DNA of 64,000 bases from Kitasatospora sp. NBC_00374 (lineage in GTDB: Bacteria > Actinomycetota > Actinomycetes > Streptomycetales > Streptomycetaceae), in NCBI RefSeq assembly GCF_041434935.1, contig NZ_CP107964.1:7981001-8045000 (forward strand), written 5' to 3'. Of the stretch, positions 22,886 through 32,571 are shown in pieces. The position numbers were made by a program, and so were the translations under genes. The notes below the pieces were generated by a model. That model had not been told where the DNA came from. It did no database searches and saw nothing but the letters and a program-made list of their open reading frames with translations. Position 1 is the stretch's first letter. Each line of letters opens with the position of its first letter.

Positions 22886-23399
22886 TAAGACTGTGTCCTA
22901 CGTGGTGGTCTTGGCGAGGCGTTTGTGGCAGGTGAGGACGGCGGCGAGGTCGCAGAAGGCCAGGTGCTGGCGGTGATCGCGTTCGTAGCGTCGGGCGATC
23001 CGGCGGTAGCCGGTGAGCCACGACATGGTGCGTTCGATGACCCACCGATGGCGGCCGAGGGTCTGGCTCGACTCGACGCCCTTGCGGGCGATTCGGGGCA
23101 GGATTCCCCGCCTGCGAAGCCATGTGCGCAGCTCGGAGTTGTCGTACGCCTTGTCCGCGTGCGGCTTGCGTGGCAGGAGGTGCGGGCCTCGCTCGGGGTC
23201 GTGTTTCGCCGGGAGGGCTTCGACCAGGGGGCGTCGGGCCGTGCTGGTCGTGGGTGTTGGCGGAGGAGATGCCGATGACGAGGGGCAGCCCGTTGCGGTC
23301 GGACAGGACATGCACCTTGGAGCCGGGCTTTCCCCGGTCGACGGGGCTGGGACCTGTGTGTTCGCCCCGTTACCGTTTTCACGGCCCCGCAACGGGGTT

Positions 23400-23560
23400 C
23401 CCGGCCTCCCGGCCCGGCATGACTTGTGCCCCTTGTCGATCATGATCGAAAAAGTGGTGTCACCGGGCTCGGAGGCGTTGGCAGACCGCTGATTAGGGGC
23501 TTGAGCGCCGAACCTGTCCAGGCGAGGCAGGCTCTTCGTAACGTGGATGCCGGCACGCTG
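23400..23560 (+). ncRNA. candidate IS110 bridge RNA in the non-coding left end
   Basis: Bridge RNAs of IS110 elements are transcribed from the non-coding left end and carry two internal loops that pair with the target and with the element ends. Here a stem-loop at 23420-23462 (TGAC closed by GTCA, inner hairpin TCGATCATGATCGA) has GCCCCTT on its 5' side (23428-23434) and CGAAAAAGTG on its 3' side (23447-23456). The first resembles the left side of the insertion site. The second is the complement of the right junction with one T fewer. A second structured segment has TAGGGGC at 23494-23500, identical to the right end of the element (24817-24823), and CGTAAC at 23537-23542, the complement of GTTACG, close to the left end GTTACC. 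Exact RNA ends are unknown. Confidence 0.55.
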
Positions 23561-23601
23561 ATGCCGCAGGGCCGGGGAAGACGAGACCTGGGGAGGGGCA
23601 G

Positions 23602-24807
23602 TTGACCAGCACCGACGGCATCGACGTCTATCTCGGACTGGACGTCGGCAAGGGCGAGCACCACGCGACCGCGCTCACCCCGGCCGGCAAGAGGGTCGTC
23701 GACAAGGCACTGCCCAACAACGAGCCCAGGCTCCGTGAGCTGTTCTCGAAGCTGCAGGCCAAGCACGGGACCGTGCTCGTGGTGGTCGACCAGCCGGCCA
23801 CCGTCGGCGCCCTGCCGCTGGCCGTCGCCCGCAGCACCGGCTGCCGTGTCGCCTACCTGCCCGGCCTGACCATGCGCCGGATCGCCGACCTGTATCCCGG
23901 CGAGGCGAAGACCGACGCCCGCGACGCGCACGTCATCGCGGACGCCGCCCGCACCATGCCACACACCCTGCGTGACCTGGTGCCGAGCGACGAGATTGTC
24001 GCCGAGCTGGAGATGATCGCCGGCTTCGACGACGACCTCGCGGGTGAGTCGACCAGGATCAAGAACCGCCTGCGCGGCCTGCTCACCCAGATCCATCCCT
24101 CACTCGAACGCGTCCTGGGCCCACGCCTCGACCACCCGGCCGTCCTTGCCCTGCTCGAACGCCACGGCTCCCCGGCCCAGTTGAGGAAGGCCGGCCGGCG
24201 TCGACTGATCACACTGCTGCGGCCCAAGGCCCCGCGGATGGCCGAGCGCCTGGTCGAGGACATCCTCACCGCCCTCGACGAGCAGACCGTCGTGGTCCCC
24301 GGCACCGAGGCCGCCGCGCTCATCGTCCCCAGCCTCGCCACCTCACTGACCGCAGTCCTCGACCAGCGCAAACTCCTCGCCGCAAGGATCGAGGAACTGC
24401 TGGAGGCCCACCCTCTTTCCCCGGTCCTGATCTCGATGCCCGGCATCGGTGTCAGGACCGCCGCCCGGATCCTCGTCGACGTCGGCGACGCGAGCGCCTT
24501 CCCGACCGCCGGCCATCTCGCGGCATACGCGGGCCTCGCGCCCGTCACCCGCGCCTCCGGCTCCTCCATCCGCGGCGAGCACCCCTCACGACGCGGCAAC
24601 AAGCAGCTCAAACGCGCCTTCTACCTGGCCGCGTTCGCATCCCTGTCCCAACCCGAGTCACGGGCCTACTACGACCGGAAGCGACGCGAGGGCAAGCACC
24701 ACGTCGCTGCCCTCGTCGCACTCGCCCGACGCCGCATCGACGTCCTCTTCGCCATGCTCCGAGACGACGGCACCCTCTACCAGCCGCCGACCGCTGCTTC
24801 TGCTTGA
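23602..24807 (+). CDS. IS110-family transposase (RuvC-like DEDD recombinase)
   Basis: A 401-residue protein with a TTG start at 23602 preceded by GGGGAGGGG. The N-terminal RuvC-like domain shows Asp14 (YLGLDVGKGEHH), Asp63 (VVVDQPATVGAL; Glu in many relatives), and Asp105 and Asp108 (AKTDARDAHV). A coiled-coil region follows, then the C-terminal Tnp domain, MPGIGVRTAARILVDVGD, with the candidate nucleophilic serine near residue 320 in TRASGSS. IS110 enzymes cut through a composite DEDD/serine site directed by a bridge RNA. The gene is complete and lies inside the IS5-type element. Confidence 0.92.
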   Translation: MTSTDGIDVYLGLDVGKGEHHATALTPAGKRVVDKALPNNEPRLRELFSKLQAKHGTVLVVVDQPATVGALPLAVARSTGCRVAYLPGLTMRRIADLYPGEAKTDARDAHVIADAARTMPHTLRDLVPSDEIVAELEMIAGFDDDLAGESTRIKNRLRGLLTQIHPSLERVLGPRLDHPAVLALLERHGSPAQLRKAGRRRLITLLRPKAPRMAERLVEDILTALDEQTVVVPGTEAAALIVPSLATSLTAVLDQRKLLAARIEELLEAHPLSPVLISMPGIGVRTAARILVDVGDASAFPTAGHLAAYAGLAPVTRASGSSIRGEHPSRRGNKQLKRAFYLAAFASLSQPESRAYYDRKRREGKHHVAALVALARRRIDVLFAMLRDDGTLYQPPTAASA

Positions 24808-25144
24808 CGAAGACCATAGGGGCACTTTTTTCGCGCGGACGTGCACGGAGTCGACGACGACGCGCGACAGGTCCAGGACCTCGGCGTCGGCCAGGTACTC
24901 CAGTATCACCCTGCGGAGCCGGCCCCACAGGCCGTCCTTGGTCCAGATCGTGAAGCGGCGGTGCACCGTGGACTTCGACACCCCGAAACACGGTGGCAGA
25001 TGCCGCCACGCACACCCCGTCGTCAACACGTAGACCACTGCGGCGAACACCGCACAACGACAGCACCGCCACGTAGGACACGGTCTTAGCCCTGCCCTGG
25101 CAGTTGGGCGGGCGTGGATCTTCGAGGGGGGCCGGGCGGCCGGT

Positions 25145-26898: not shown

Positions 26899-29800
26899 CT
26901 ACCTCTTCTCCAGTCCCAGGTCCGCTCCGCCGGTGCGCGAGGCGCTCTCGATGATCTGCTCCCAAGTCTTGCCCCTGGCCCGTAGATAGTCGATGGTCGG
27001 GCCCAGCTTGTCACCGTACTTCGCCAAGTTGCGGTCGTAGATGGTCTGCCGCTGCTCCTTGGGGGTCAGGTCCTTGTACTTCTCCCCGATGTCACGCCTG
27101 GCCTGGTGCAGGGCGCGGGCGATCTCCTCGTCGGTGGCGCCTGCCGCCTTCATGTCCGCGTTCTTCTGTTTCAGGGCTTCGACCTCGGCGATATAGGCCT
27201 TCCGCAGCGGGGGCAGCTCGCCTGTCGGAGGAACTATGAGCCCGTTGTCGGCTCCGAGTTCCGTGGTCACCCGAGGGGCACGGGGGCCGAACGCCCGGCC
27301 GGCCCAGGTCGCGATGCCTGCCATACCTGCGACGGCGACCTGTTGGGCGAGTTCGTCGGCGTGTTTCTCGACCTGGTCGGCGACGTTGTTGCAGCCGAAT
27401 TCGCGGAGTTTGGCTGCGGCGGTGTACATCGCGTAGGCGGGGCGGACGGGGAAGTACTTGTCGGCGAAGGCGCCGGCTCCGCCGTTGTTGCCGGTGAAGG
27501 CGTTGTAGAGGTCGCCGACGAACTCGAAGGGCATCTTCGCGCCGGTGACGAGCCCGCTGCCGATCGCGTCGAGCGGGCTCATGTCGGACAGGTCGCCGCC
27601 CTGCGGGGTGAGTCCGCTGGGGTCGGTGTAGATGGTGGGTGCGTCGGCCGCGTAGGAGTATGCCGATCCGTACGGGGCCGAGGCGGGTGTGGCGAGCGGG
27701 TCGCGGCTGTTGAACCGGCCGGTGGCGGTGTCGTACTCGCGGGCCCGGAGGTACTGCTTGCCGGGTATGACGGGGTCGTTGTACTGGCCGGCGAACCCGA
27801 AGGGTGTGGTAGGTGCGCCGGCGGCGATGGTGGCGGTGCCGGATCGGCCGTAGGGGTCGTAGGCGGTGCGGGTCTGCTGTGTGCCGGCCTGGTTGGTGAC
27901 GTCGGTGATCGAGCCGAGCCAGTCGTGGTGGTGGTAGGAGGTGCCGGACGGGTTGTGCTGGCTCTGCGGGAGGCCGAGCGGATCGTAGGCGTAGTCGCCG
28001 ATCAGTGCGCCGGAGCCGTTGGTCTCGGTGGCGATCTGCGGCAGGGGGTTGTTGAGGTCCCAGGTGAGCGTTCGGGACAGGGTGCCGTTGGTCTTGGTGG
28101 CGACCCGGTTGCCGTCGGCGTCGTAGGTGAACGTGAACGTCCGATAGCTCACCGCGGAGCTCTGGTGGCCGGCGGCGTCGTACGTGTAGGTCGTGGTGTG
28201 GAAGGCGAGGGGTTCCCGGTAGGTGCCCGAGCTCCACAGTGCCTTTTGGGCGGTGTCGAGGACGACGAGACTGCCGGTGTCCTGGACCTTGGCGTAGGCC
28301 CCGGTGTTTCCGCCGGTGTTGGTGCTCCACAGCGTCGTGCCGTCGGCGGATGCGACGACGAGATTGCCGTCGGCCTGCATGGTCGCGTGGGCGCCGGGGT
28401 GGCCCGCGGTGCCGGAGGACCAGACGGCGAGTCCGGTGTCGATCGCGTACAGGACGAGGTTGCCATCGGCCTGCATGATCAAGCGGGTGCTGTTGGATGC
28501 CACGACGGTGCCGGACTCAAGGACGGTGCCGCCGGCGATCGTCTGGTCCTGGAACGGGGTGTTGACGGTGGTGGTGTTGCCGTCGGCGTCGTAGGTGTAG
28601 GTGGTGGTGGCCGAGCCGGTGGTGCTCCTGGTGAGCTGGTCGGCTGCGTCGTAGGTGGAGGTGGTGGTGCCGAAGGCGTCGGTCTGGGTGAGCCGGTTGC
28701 CGACCTTGTCGTAGGTGTAGGTCAGGGCTCCGGCGGCGCAGCCGACGGTGGACGGGGCGAGGGGGCAGCCGGACGTCAGACGGCCGGCCTGGTCGTAGGT
28801 GTGGTTCTGGGTGCCGGTGCCCAGTCCGGGACGGTTGACGTCGACCTTGGTGGGTTGGCCTGCCGCGTCGCGGGTGAGCCGCCAGGAGGCGAGGGTTGTG
28901 GTGCCCTTGGTGCTGGCGATGCCGCTGAGCCGGCCGGTGGTGTCGTAGGTGCGGGCTTCGGTGTAGCCGTTGGTGCCGGGCAGGACGGTGGCGGTGAGGT
29001 TGCCGGCGGGGTCGTAGGCGTAGGTGGTGCTCGCGCCGTCGGCGGTCAGCTTGGTCTGGTGGCCGTCGTCGTCGTAGGCATAGGCGAGCTTCTCGCCGTC
29101 CGGGTACTGGCGGCTGGTCAGGCTGCCGCGGGTGTCGTAGGTGTAGGTGAAGCCGGTGCCGCCGCCGGGTGCGGTGATGGACAGCAGCCGGTCGGCCTTG
29201 TCGTACGCCAGGGTGCGGGTGCCGGTCGCGTCGGTGACCGAGGCGGGCCGTCCGGCCTTGTCGTAGGCGCGGGTGACGGCGGGGGTGGTGTCGGAGTAAC
29301 TGGTGCCGGTCGGCAGGCCGCGCGGGTCGTAGCTTGTGGTGGTGGTCAGGCCGCGGGCGTTGGTGAGGGTGGTGGCGTGCCCCTCCGGGTCGTGGCCGTA
29401 GGTGACTTTGTTGCCGAGCGGGTCGGTGGCGGCGGTGAGCCGGTGGAGCGGGTCGTAGGTGTACCTGGTGACGTGGTTGTTGGCGTCGGTGCGTGAGGTA
29501 CGGTCGTTGACCGTGTTCCACGTGTTGGTGGTGACCGCGCCGGCCGGATCGGTGATGGTGGTCACCCGGCCGGCGGCGTCGTACGCCGTGGTGGTCTTGC
29601 GGTTGAGCGGGTCGGAGACGGACGTGGGGCGGTTGAGTGCGTCGTAGGCCGTGGTCGTGGTGTTGCCGAGTGGGTCCTTGACGGTGGTGCGGTTGCCGGC
29701 CGCGTCGTAGCCGAAGGTCGTGGTGTAGGTCGCGGGTGTGGCCCCGGTGGCGTTGCCGCGCGGGTCGACGACCGCGGTGAGGCGTTCGTCGGTGTCGAAG

Positions 29801-32571
29801 GACCAGGTCGTCCTGCTGCCAAGGGGCGTGGTTTGCGAAATCCGGTTTCCGGCGGCGTCGTAGCCGTAGGCGGTGGCCTTGCCCAGCGCGTCGGTGACGC
29901 TCGTCAGCCGGCCGAGCGTGTCGTACCCGTAGGTGGCCTTGGCCGTGGTCGGGTCGGTGACGGTCAGGACCTGGTTGGTCGGGCTGTAGGTCGTGGCGGT
30001 GACGTTGCCGAGCGGGTCGGTGACGGTGACGGGCCGGTTGACCTCGTCGTAGGCGGTGACAGTGACGGCGCCGGTCGGGTCGGTGACGGAGGTGCGGTTG
30101 CCGTTGGCGTCGTAGCCGTAGGTCCAGGTGTAGGCGGCCGGGGTCGCGCCGGCGGCGTTGCCGCGCGCGGTGACCAGTGCGGTGGGCCGGTTGTTCCTGT
30201 CGTAGTTGTAGGCGGTCCGGTTTCCGAGCGGGTCGGTGACGGAGGTGAGGTTTCCGGTCTGGTCGAAGGTGCTGGCGGTGGTGTTGCCGGCTGCGTCCTT
30301 GATGTTGGTGCGGTTGCCTGCGGCGTCGTAGGTGTAGGTGATGGTGCTGCCCAGCGGATCCTTCGCGGACGTGAGTTGCCCGTCGGCGTCGTAGCCGTAA
30401 CTGGTGACTCCGGCCAGTGGATCGGTGGCCTTGGTGAGCATGCCGCCGGCGTCGTAGGCGTAGCTCGTGGTGTAGGCGGCGGGCGTCGCGCCGGCGAGGT
30501 TGCCGCGCGGGTCGGTCTTTGAGGTGACCCGACCTGCCGTGTCGTAGTTGAAGGTGGTCTTCTCGCCGAGCGGTGTGATCGTCGAGGTCCGGTTGCCCGT
30601 GCTGTCGTAGCCGTAGGTGGTGGTGCCGCCGCGCGGGCCGGTGACGGTGGAGAGCAGGCCGAGCGCCCCGTAGGTGTAGCTGGTCCTGCCGCCCACCGGG
30701 TCGGTGGTCGAGGTCAGCTGGTTGCCGGCGTTGTACGCGTAGGTGGTGGTGTTGCCGCGGGCGTCCTTGTGCGAGGTCACCCGGTTCGCGCCGTCGTAGC
30801 TCCAGGTGTCGGTGGTGGACACCGGCGCCGGGGCGGTGCTCGTCAGCAGGTTGCCGTTCGGGTCGTACGTGAACGTGGCTTTCCGGCCGTTGGCGTCGGT
30901 CAGCGAGGTGCGGTTGAGCGAGCTGTCGTATCCGTACGTGGTCGTCTTCCCGTACGGGTCGGACTGCCAGCTGATCACCCCGTCGGTGTACTTCTGCGTC
31001 CAGATCCCGCCGTCGGGATGGGTCACGTAGGTGGTGCCGGGGTTCGCGGCGTCGTAGGCGAAGGTCGTCTTCGCACCCAGGGCGTCGGTCTGGCCCGTCA
31101 CCCGTCCGCTGCCGTCGTAGACGTTGGTGATCCGCGCCTTGCCCAGCGGGTCGGTGACCGTGGTGAGCAGGCCGGCGGCGTCGTAGCCGAACGTCGTGGT
31201 CTGCCCGCGCAGGTCCTTCACGCTTGTCAGCCGACCGTCGGTGTAGCCGTAGGTGACCGTTCGTGAGCCGGGAAGGGTGGCGGTGGTGAGCAGCGCGCCG
31301 GTGTAGCCGAAGGTGACGGTGTGTCCGCCTGCGTCGGTGACGGAGGTCGGCTGACCACCGGTGTACGCAAGGGTTGGCCCGACTCCGGCGGGGTCGCGCA
31401 TCGCGGTCAGCCGGCCGTTGGCGTCGAAGAGCAACTGGTGCTGGTCCGGGGTCGTCAGCTGGTATCCGTTGGCTGTCTTCTGCAGCTTGGAGTGGGCGTA
31501 GGGCCGGGTCGGCGCGAGCGAGCCGTCCGGCTGCACGGCATAGTCGCTCTGCGAGCCGTCCTCCGAGACGAAGGTGACCACCGACTGCCCGACGATCAGT
31601 GATGCGGAGTACGGGAAGGCCCAGCCCTTGCCGAACACGCCGGAAGCCGCCAGGGACGAGGAGTAGCTCCTGGTCAGCTGGACCGTCTGGCCGGGGCCGG
31701 GCACCTGGGCGTCGGTGAACACCTCACCGAAGGCCCCGGTGGAGGTGTTGACCGGGTCGCCGCAGTACTTCACCAGCTCGAGGACGATGCCCGTGCTGGA
31801 GGGGGAGCCCGGGCAGGCCAGCGACACGTTCGCGGGAACCCCGTAGATCGGAACCGGCGGTGCCGAGGCCGACCTGAGCGTGTCGGAGCTGCCGTCGCGA
31901 TAGGCGTACGTCACCACGACGTAGTAGTCGACGCCCTTCTGGATCTGCGCCATCAGCGAGCACCAACCGGTGGCCTCGTACACCGACCACTGCGCCGCGT
32001 CGATCTGCGCATTGTCCGAGGCCCGGTAGAACACGACCGACACGGCACCTCGGCCGACCCCGAGAAGATTCGATGGCGTATCAGGATTGAAATCCCAGGT
32101 CGCACACCACGACAGACCGGTGCTGCCGCTCTGTAGATTGTCCGCATAGGAGCGGAGATTGGCGATGTACGGGTGGCCGGGCGGCCAAGCGGCGGTCGCT
32201 CCCTGTGCCTCGGCTGCTGCTGGTGCCTCGGTGGACTTGGGCGGGGCGCCCTTGACCTTCGCCTGGACCTCGGCCTCTGTCAGCCGCTGATATCCAGGGG
32301 TGCCAGGCCCGGCAACACGGCCCGCCACTCCTGCGTGTCGGTCGGGCAGGGGCGAGGAGCCCAGCTTCCTGGCCTGTTCCCGCTTCTGTCCCATCGACAG
32401 GGGAGTCGGCGGCGGCGTGGCCCGGGGAGGTGCGCTGCTGCTCGTCGGAGCAGTGGCCGTGGCGGCAACCGTGCGAGCCGAGGCTGTCGGTGCACTGCCG
32501 CTCGCCACGAGGACCGTCATGAGGACAGAAACGACTAACCGGCGGATATTGACCTTCATCTCACCATCCAT
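26899..32571 (-). CDS. secreted RHS-repeat polymorphic toxin with an embedded bulb-type lectin domain
   Basis: A 1,890-residue protein with a signal peptide (about residues 5-32, VNIRRLVVSVLMTVLVASGS). The start is ATG 32571, with ATG 32559 equally possible. Residues about 270-345 form the DUF6531-like entry region (VNTSTGAFGEVFTDAQVPGP). About 380-1330 and 1460-1560 consist of YD repeats (YxxxGxLxxxTDPxG), which build the hollow RHS shell. Residues 1338-1455 are a bulb-type lectin domain with MQADGNLVLY and MQADGNLVVA sugar-binding motifs and a weaker third copy. The RHS core end, GRFNSRDPLATPASAPYGSA then YTDPSG, falls at about 1610-1650. The last 240 residues are the variable tip, ending in a helical domain (YDRNLAKYGDKLGPTIDYLR, TWEQIIESASRTGG). 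Toxic activity of the tip is inferred; the enzyme type is not identified. Confidence 0.9.
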   Translation of the reverse strand: MDGEMKVNIRRLVVSVLMTVLVASGSAPTASARTVAATATAPTSSSAPPRATPPPTPLSMGQKREQARKLGSSPLPDRHAGVAGRVAGPGTPGYQRLTEAEVQAKVKGAPPKSTEAPAAAEAQGATAAWPPGHPYIANLRSYADNLQSGSTGLSWCATWDFNPDTPSNLLGVGRGAVSVVFYRASDNAQIDAAQWSVYEATGWCSLMAQIQKGVDYYVVVTYAYRDGSSDTLRSASAPPVPIYGVPANVSLACPGSPSSTGIVLELVKYCGDPVNTSTGAFGEVFTDAQVPGPGQTVQLTRSYSSSLAASGVFGKGWAFPYSASLIVGQSVVTFVSEDGSQSDYAVQPDGSLAPTRPYAHSKLQKTANGYQLTTPDQHQLLFDANGRLTAMRDPAGVGPTLAYTGGQPTSVTDAGGHTVTFGYTGALLTTATLPGSRTVTYGYTDGRLTSVKDLRGQTTTFGYDAAGLLTTVTDPLGKARITNVYDGSGRVTGQTDALGAKTTFAYDAANPGTTYVTHPDGGIWTQKYTDGVISWQSDPYGKTTTYGYDSSLNRTSLTDANGRKATFTYDPNGNLLTSTAPAPVSTTDTWSYDGANRVTSHKDARGNTTTYAYNAGNQLTSTTDPVGGRTSYTYGALGLLSTVTGPRGGTTTYGYDSTGNRTSTITPLGEKTTFNYDTAGRVTSKTDPRGNLAGATPAAYTTSYAYDAGGMLTKATDPLAGVTSYGYDADGQLTSAKDPLGSTITYTYDAAGNRTNIKDAAGNTTASTFDQTGNLTSVTDPLGNRTAYNYDRNNRPTALVTARGNAAGATPAAYTWTYGYDANGNRTSVTDPTGAVTVTAYDEVNRPVTVTDPLGNVTATTYSPTNQVLTVTDPTTAKATYGYDTLGRLTSVTDALGKATAYGYDAAGNRISQTTPLGSRTTWSFDTDERLTAVVDPRGNATGATPATYTTTFGYDAAGNRTTVKDPLGNTTTTAYDALNRPTSVSDPLNRKTTTAYDAAGRVTTITDPAGAVTTNTWNTVNDRTSRTDANNHVTRYTYDPLHRLTAATDPLGNKVTYGHDPEGHATTLTNARGLTTTTSYDPRGLPTGTSYSDTTPAVTRAYDKAGRPASVTDATGTRTLAYDKADRLLSITAPGGGTGFTYTYDTRGSLTSRQYPDGEKLAYAYDDDGHQTKLTADGASTTYAYDPAGNLTATVLPGTNGYTEARTYDTTGRLSGIASTKGTTTLASWRLTRDAAGQPTKVDVNRPGLGTGTQNHTYDQAGRLTSGCPLAPSTVGCAAGALTYTYDKVGNRLTQTDAFGTTTSTYDAADQLTRSTTGSATTTYTYDADGNTTTVNTPFQDQTIAGGTVLESGTVVASNSTRLIMQADGNLVLYAIDTGLAVWSSGTAGHPGAHATMQADGNLVVASADGTTLWSTNTGGNTGAYAKVQDTGSLVVLDTAQKALWSSGTYREPLAFHTTTYTYDAAGHQSSAVSYRTFTFTYDADGNRVATKTNGTLSRTLTWDLNNPLPQIATETNGSGALIGDYAYDPLGLPQSQHNPSGTSYHHHDWLGSITDVTNQAGTQQTRTAYDPYGRSGTATIAAGAPTTPFGFAGQYNDPVIPGKQYLRAREYDTATGRFNSRDPLATPASAPYGSAYSYAADAPTIYTDPSGLTPQGGDLSDMSPLDAIGSGLVTGAKMPFEFVGDLYNAFTGNNGGAGAFADKYFPVRPAYAMYTAAAKLREFGCNNVADQVEKHADELAQQVAVAGMAGIATWAGRAFGPRAPRVTTELGADNGLIVPPTGELPPLRKAYIAEVEALKQKNADMKAAGATDEEIARALHQARRDIGEKYKDLTPKEQRQTIYDRNLAKYGDKLGPTIDYLRARGKTWEQIIESASRTGGADLGLEKR

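Follow-up and report, generated by a model that had tools for sequence, protein, structure and literature searches.

Why does a complete insertion sequence lie inside the transposase gene of another one, and what selected the exact point of entry? The question is raised by a locus of Kitasatospora sp. NBC_00374, within the 64,000-nucleotide stretch of DNA analysed here (the window, to which all positions refer), where an IS110-group element on the plus strand (23369-24825) interrupts an IS5-family insertion sequence. The preliminary description of this locus had recognized the nesting, and rightly so: halves of an IS5-family transposase flank the element on both sides, and the inverted repeats of the host match at 19 of 20 bases. 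The C-terminal half (22886-23368, minus strand; Pfam DDE_Tnp_1, 3.5e-7) includes the left inverted repeat (22886-22905) and is in the -1 frame at the junction, and the N-terminal half (24826-25088, minus strand; Pfam DUF4096, 2.8e-15) includes the right inverted repeat (25069-25088), located by eye and checked letter by letter. The host copy in the window is decayed: a second copy in the genome is about 125 bases longer in the N-terminal part, and the C-terminal half in the window shifts frame once more. Farther along, an open frame of 1890 aa (26899-32571, minus strand) presumably encodes an RHS/YD-repeat-like protein, judging by eye.

The exact empty-site pattern has 0 matches in 70 genomes of the genus, and uninterrupted homologues of the host sequence were therefore used for comparison. 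Four of these read CCCCTTTTTT at the site (L129, L131, L133, and L148), and the second host copy of the same genome, also uninterrupted (L142), reads GCGCCCTTTTT. The element begins with GTTACC and ends with TAGGGGCAC; in the comparison with uninterrupted homologues and with the ends of relatives, the best fit in length is GTTACC...GGGGCAC, with a core common to element and target and no target duplication in the best-fit alignment. The start proposed earlier stands, and the end moves from 24824 to 24825, with an uncertainty of 1-2 bases because run lengths differ among the homologues (e.g., L089 and L128). The two halves of the target on the plus strand, placed by homologous empty sites and checked by script, are TTCGCCCC on the left (23361-23368, as previously positioned) and TTTTTTCG on the right (24826-24833). 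The 9.2 Mb source genome holds one full copy of the element, the other 11 matches being short.

The layout is that of the IS110 group, with a non-coding left end of 233 bases upstream of tnp and a right end of 18 bases. The recombinase gene (23602-24807, plus strand, TTG start) encodes 401 aa that match Pfam DEDD_Tnp_IS110 (2.7e-49) and Transposase_20 (2.1e-24), NCBIfam NF033542 (2.8e-70), and the IS621 structure 8wt6 (5.5e-15); the relatives with solved structures are IS621 and ISCro4. The serine region of the protein, SGSS, aligns with that of IS621, the N-terminal alignment being too weak to assign the four catalytic acidic residues. Around residue 64, this weak alignment places VDQP against IEAT of IS621, that is, D against E at the second catalytic acidic position.

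The left end carries four short segments, which had been likened to the insertion site and to the ends of the element: GCCCCTT (23428-23434), CGAAAAAGTG (23447-23456), TAGGGGC (23494-23500), and CGTAAC (23537-23542). All four were confirmed by script at these positions. The first forms part of the predicted left target guide (LTG, TTGTGCCCCTT, 23424-23434), and the second is the predicted right target guide (RTG), the complement of CACTTTTTCG; as had been observed, it is one T short of the right junction, with five T against six at the insertion site, and the second host copy in the genome (L142) has five. The third, the left donor guide (LDG), is indeed identical to the right end of the element at 24817-24823. 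The fourth, the right donor guide (RDG), kept its position and gained in length, its match extending to CGTAACGTG (23537-23545), the complement of the predicted circle junction CACGTTACG. The two 5' guides (LTG and LDG) have the sequence of the left top strand, and the two 3' guides (RTG and RDG) complement the right top strand. Guide order and strands thus fit the model of the IS110 bridge RNA in the parts of PMC11208160 that we consulted, in line with the layout originally suggested. RTG and RDG both end in GTG, the complement of the right-end CAC, and the core was therefore placed at the right end of the element.

When 34 left ends are aligned and folded to a consensus, the structured part of the predicted bridge RNA spans 23383-23554 on the plus strand. 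Its 5' stem-loop (23383-23399, helix 1) has 96.6% of cells paired, and 5 of its 7 pairs changed on both sides. The target-binding stem-loop (23404-23476) is closed by a stem of 17 pairs (23404-23423 with 23459-23476, helix 2), 96.7% paired and changed on both sides at 6 pairs; LTG and RTG (about 23447-23458) are left unpaired and face each other across one internal loop, in agreement with the claim that the first two segments lie on opposite sides of a stem-loop. The apical palindrome TCGATCATGATCGA (23436-23449, as located before; helix 3) is 74.4% paired across copies, and the donor stems are 81.3 and 84.4% paired, less supported than the target stem. RNAalifold drew no donor loop in the consensus of the 34 left ends and drew as pairs some of the complements between donor guides and element ends (columns 1-201 and 6-197). 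Of the four segments that the preliminary description wanted to see in internal loops, the consensus fold places the two target guides there. The whole named structure is 90.1% paired, and 54 cells changed on both sides, where shuffles give 19.4 and slid versions 9 to 18. Two of the five structure measures are barely above shuffles, namely pairs with double change (13 vs 9.9; 32 of 500 shuffles as high) and pair types (47 vs 45.7; 168 of 500). The left end of the window folded as a single sequence is unremarkable (z -1.5, a value matched by 16 of 200 shuffles); in the form of minimum energy, part of LTG pairs with the RTG side. Rfam gives 0 matches at the gathering score in the window. Collectively, the aligned left ends make the predicted target stem and 5' stem-loop well supported, the putative apical hairpin and donor stems being weaker.

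Relatives came from the best 80 loci of one search, further loci, and 13 Streptomyces plasmid loci. The 204 recombinase matches in these loci comprise 92 copies with both ends recognized by pattern and 112 without; removal of duplicates reduced the former to 79, on which the permutations were run, and a further 5 copies, from plasmids and with left ends that had escaped the pattern, later brought the set to 84. Their guides fall into two types. Type A, with 35 copies including the window element, has guides that read (C/T)TTTTCG rightward, with one variant, CCTTTCG (L021), and type B, with 49 copies, has guides that read C runs. The sites differ accordingly: in 31 of the 35 type A copies, the site is CCC|(C/T)TTT, with CCC in the left flank and TTT among the first bases of the right flank, and in 47 of 49 type B copies, it is poly-C with CCC on both sides. 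The misfits are the right flanks of L150, L097, and L098 and the left flank of L031 among type A (4/35), and L179 and one of two L035 copies among type B (2/49); we take such copies to be probable products of later rearrangement. In L097 and L098, the flanks of which are identical to those of the Kitasatospora loci L015 and L016, GTTACC, the start of a left end, directly follows the right end and precedes unrelated sequence, perhaps left over from a tandem or circle-junction copy. Among type B relatives, some are arranged head to tail or almost head to tail (L035, L037, L081, and G364:C1:280601-283573); where a C run follows the right end of one copy, it would offer a fresh poly-C target to the next.

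Covariation, which the preliminary description had proposed as a check, is seen for each of the four guides when all copies are taken together: the target guides covary with the target and the donor guides with the circle junction. With the 79 copies grouped by outer flank into 67 clusters (threshold 0.75), LTG and left flank agree in 399 matches against 365.8 expected (permutation z 5.7; two registers permitted, in data and shuffles alike), and RTG and right flank in 355 against 259.2 (z 7.8), with 0 of 20,000 shuffles reaching either score. The first 51 non-duplicate two-ended copies exceed all 10,000 shuffles for both guides, and the 28 clusters represented by later-fetched copies give z 2.2 (LTG) and 3.0 (RTG). 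Within type A alone (18 clusters), the LTG score is reached by 40 and the RTG score by 35 of 20,000 shuffles, and no excess is seen with decoy flanks taken 20 nt away (z 0.8 and -2.2). The type B RTG gives no covariation signal (z -1.0), its guides and flanks consisting almost wholly of C. With the register fixed, LTG covariation is strong in type B, at z 4.5, and weak in type A, at z 1.5. Copies with the same guide were also sought in unrelated sequences; they differ in their surroundings and are mostly found at the motif that the guide specifies, one guide occurring in five places that all read CCCC|TTTTT (L184, L185, L186, L227, and L228).

The donor side behaves in the same manner. Among the 79 copies that could be parsed for donor guides (5 of 84 could not), the RDG partner agrees with left-end base 1 (G or A) in 76 and with base 5 in 77, and LDG and right end are concordant on the presence or absence of AGAGG in all 79, with single LDG mismatches elsewhere, e.g., in L097. 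Right junctions are CAC in 81 and CCC in 3 of the 84 copies; the C ahead of the cut is in part a product of the search, the right-end pattern of which ends in [AC]C, and a junction count from a pattern that makes no demand on the last C agrees. The junctions of these 84 copies are hence (A/C)C, and the CT core of IS621 and related orthologues does not occur among them. By sequence, TTGACN-N18-TANNNT spans the right-left junction in 84 of 84 copies, the left-end search pattern partly fixing TANNNT, i.e., the -10 half; in the window, the possible -35 and -10 halves of a circle-junction promoter are TTGACG (24804-24809) and TACCGT (23371-23376), both on the plus strand.

Where, then, do such sites lie? 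Among the 35 type A copies, 23 are bordered on both sides by halves of an IS5 transposase, and 29 have IS5 transposase on one side or both; among the 49 type B copies, the corresponding numbers are 0 and 1 (Fisher tests). This census is one strict blastp round with fixed seeds; iterated blastp without composition correction was discarded, because it assigned high-GC noise to IS5 for type A and type B alike. In all 5 type A copies analysed with Pfam, DUF4096 lies on the right and DDE_Tnp_1 on the left. On the coding strand of IS5, insertion occurs where an A run gives way to a G run, with the encoded peptide interrupted at ...VRAK|... or ...AHQHAAGARK|...; L094 and L096 occupy other points of IS5 genes. 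Of the 23 split hosts, 17 have their C-terminal half in the -1 frame, 4 in +1, and 2 in zero, by a test that takes the best-scoring frame within 400 bases and can be altered by indels away from the junction. The window's own row in this census is without a right half, the locus as fetched stopping 43 bases past the element; the window itself has it. Intact homologues, all of which matched one IS5 subgroup seed, need the -1 frame in 14 of 16 distinct places, 12 of 13 of those with the A/G run; this count replaces a first one of 21 of 25, which held repeated places and truncated alignments. In the portions consulted, the IS427 group of IS5 is described as having two overlapping frames and a conserved frameshift motif (PMC3281130), and IS5 is counted among the families that use frameshifting (PMC5009743). 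Given the observed frame relation and these reports, the simplest interpretation of the type A site is that it is the -1 frameshift signal of the IS5 transposase, at which ribosomes would slip. That the site is a recurring IS5 frameshift region goes beyond what had been claimed for the locus.

We consider how the association with IS5 might have arisen otherwise. It could be a by-product: few CCCCTTTT tracts exist, IS5 genes keep them, insertions elsewhere are lost to selection, and the guides are not adapted to IS5. Unoccupied CCCCTTTTT tracts are indeed rare, with 2 in the 9.2 Mb source genome and 52 in seven others, and both tracts of the source genome lie in IS5 genes by the same test, in what is apparently a duplicated region. 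Among the 32 of 54 tracts that were returned as loci and examined, 10 already lie within IS5 genes; the IS5 share is nonetheless higher among insertions (23/35; Fisher p 0.007), a rough comparison in that many type A guides want CTTTT and not TTTTT and both lists contain relatedness. Moreover, there are cases in which the LTG bases past the C run follow the host subgroup, among them AGATCCC in L100 and CAGGTCCC in L032. We consider the by-product explanation unlikely, though with a sizeable share of the probability; it is compatible with adaptation of the guides, and the association may reflect a combination of scarce tracts, well-matched guides, and the tolerance of transposons to insertion.

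It could also be the recombinase protein that recognizes the site, with the left-end segments kept for promoter or structure and tied to the target through shared ancestry. The target classes do correspond to protein clades: in the recombinase tree, type A is one clade (100/100), and types A and B are the two sides of one branch. Because type A is one clade, the A/B contrast counts as one event and by itself could reflect the protein. Changes within type A speak otherwise. Recombinases 92-95% identical to that of the window carry differing guides that match their own flanks (L094 and L100, and the left guide of L099). Of the 35 type A copies, 32 have an RTG base +1 that agrees with flank base +1, and this guide base underwent at least 7 changes on the tree; in 5 supported pairs, the flank moved along in 4, never against, and showed no difference in 1 (p 0.125, too few pairs to reach 0.05). 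For the LTG base ahead of the C run, there are about 2 tree-corrected pairs for, 0.2 against, and 1 without difference, and for the donor guides, which follow the element's own ends, 2 pairs each. The tree-corrected pairs favour the RNA and are too few; not being significant alone, they leave the permutation tests and the published mechanism to carry the rest. On this evidence, we regard recognition by the protein as very improbable and guide control as the favoured reading.

We think it equally far-fetched that a few ancestral insertions were multiplied by movement of the host IS5 elements, so that the copies are not independent. Some copies do have common flanks (L178/L187; duplicates were removed), yet type A retains 17 to 23 flank clusters at thresholds of 0.70 to 0.85 with the signal persisting, and the host transposases fall into clearly different IS5 subgroups. 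Chance resemblance of short segments, conceded in the preliminary description for each match separately and still conceivable from the window alone, where matches are 6 to 10 bases long and the single-sequence fold is ordinary, has a negligible probability in view of the guide-flank, donor, and structural covariation across copies.

The locus is thus very probably occupied by an IS110-group element with a predicted bridge RNA, the usual target of which, in type A, is the IS5 frame junction. The element would be excised as a circle, the joined ends of which (TTGACG-N18-TACCGT) would form a promoter driving the left-end RNA. The target loop of this RNA would pair with a site of the form GCCCC|TTTTTCG, and the donor loop with the junction of the element itself, TAGGGGCAC|GTTACC. 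By analogy with IS621, the recombinase would swap top strands at the shared core, probably just after its C. At the usual type A target, the IS5 frame junction, with an A run and then a G run on the coding strand as the putative -1 frameshift signal, the element would enter opposite to the IS5 gene, at the G run or one base into it, and split the host transposase. By its anatomy and covariation, the element is a predicted case of the known bridge-RNA mechanism; the recurrent IS5 frame-junction target is apparently new, as far as the open-access literature shows. We give even chances to a broader scenario, in which the lineage is specialized on parasitizing transposons through the hard-to-change -1 frameshift signal of IS5, with a right guide that reads the A/G slippery run shared by several subgroups, a left guide retuned for each subgroup, and a single target-loop switch that separates the poly-C relatives.

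These relatives form a natural series of close bridge recombinases with self-documented target loops, from which guide rules (register, mismatch tolerance, and a non-CT core) may be derived. They suggest that an RNA-guided element can home to a functional signal of another transposon family, and they make it testable why IS110 elements pick repeated, conserved sites.

Other elements of the IS110/IS1111 type reportedly target another mobile element, as do IS1383 in IS1384 and IS4321/IS5075 in the inverted repeats of Tn21. Unlike in those cases, where accounts place the target in terminal inverted repeats, the target here is the internal frame junction of a transposase gene. The resemblance to IS621, as far as the consulted parts of PMC11208160 and PMC11208158 go, extends to the left-end RNA, the 5' stem-loop, the succession of target loop and donor loop, the LTG-RTG-LDG-RDG order with its paired strands, the recombinase family, and the promoter, which in IS621 is rebuilt at the joined ends. 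At the same time, the protein is longer (401 aa against a 328-residue PDB chain), the core is (A/C)C and not the CT of IS621 and related orthologues, and the target is a C/T run, often in IS5 genes, whereas these sources give REP elements for IS621. The RTG extends here about 7 bases past the core, and the same sources report longer RTGs for some IS621 orthologues. With the IS1111/IS110 seekRNA elements, in the material consulted from PMC11187229, the element shares a non-coding end that yields a short target-selecting RNA, lying upstream of tnp in the IS110 type, as here; the targets differ, and the word frameshift does not appear in that main text. Finally, the hosts resemble the IS427 group of IS5, to which they may belong, in kind and in having two overlapping frames with a frameshift motif; in the passages of PMC3281130 and PMC5009743 consulted, frameshifting is described as regulation of IS5 and not as a landing site, the role that the IS5 frame junction appears to play for the elements described here.
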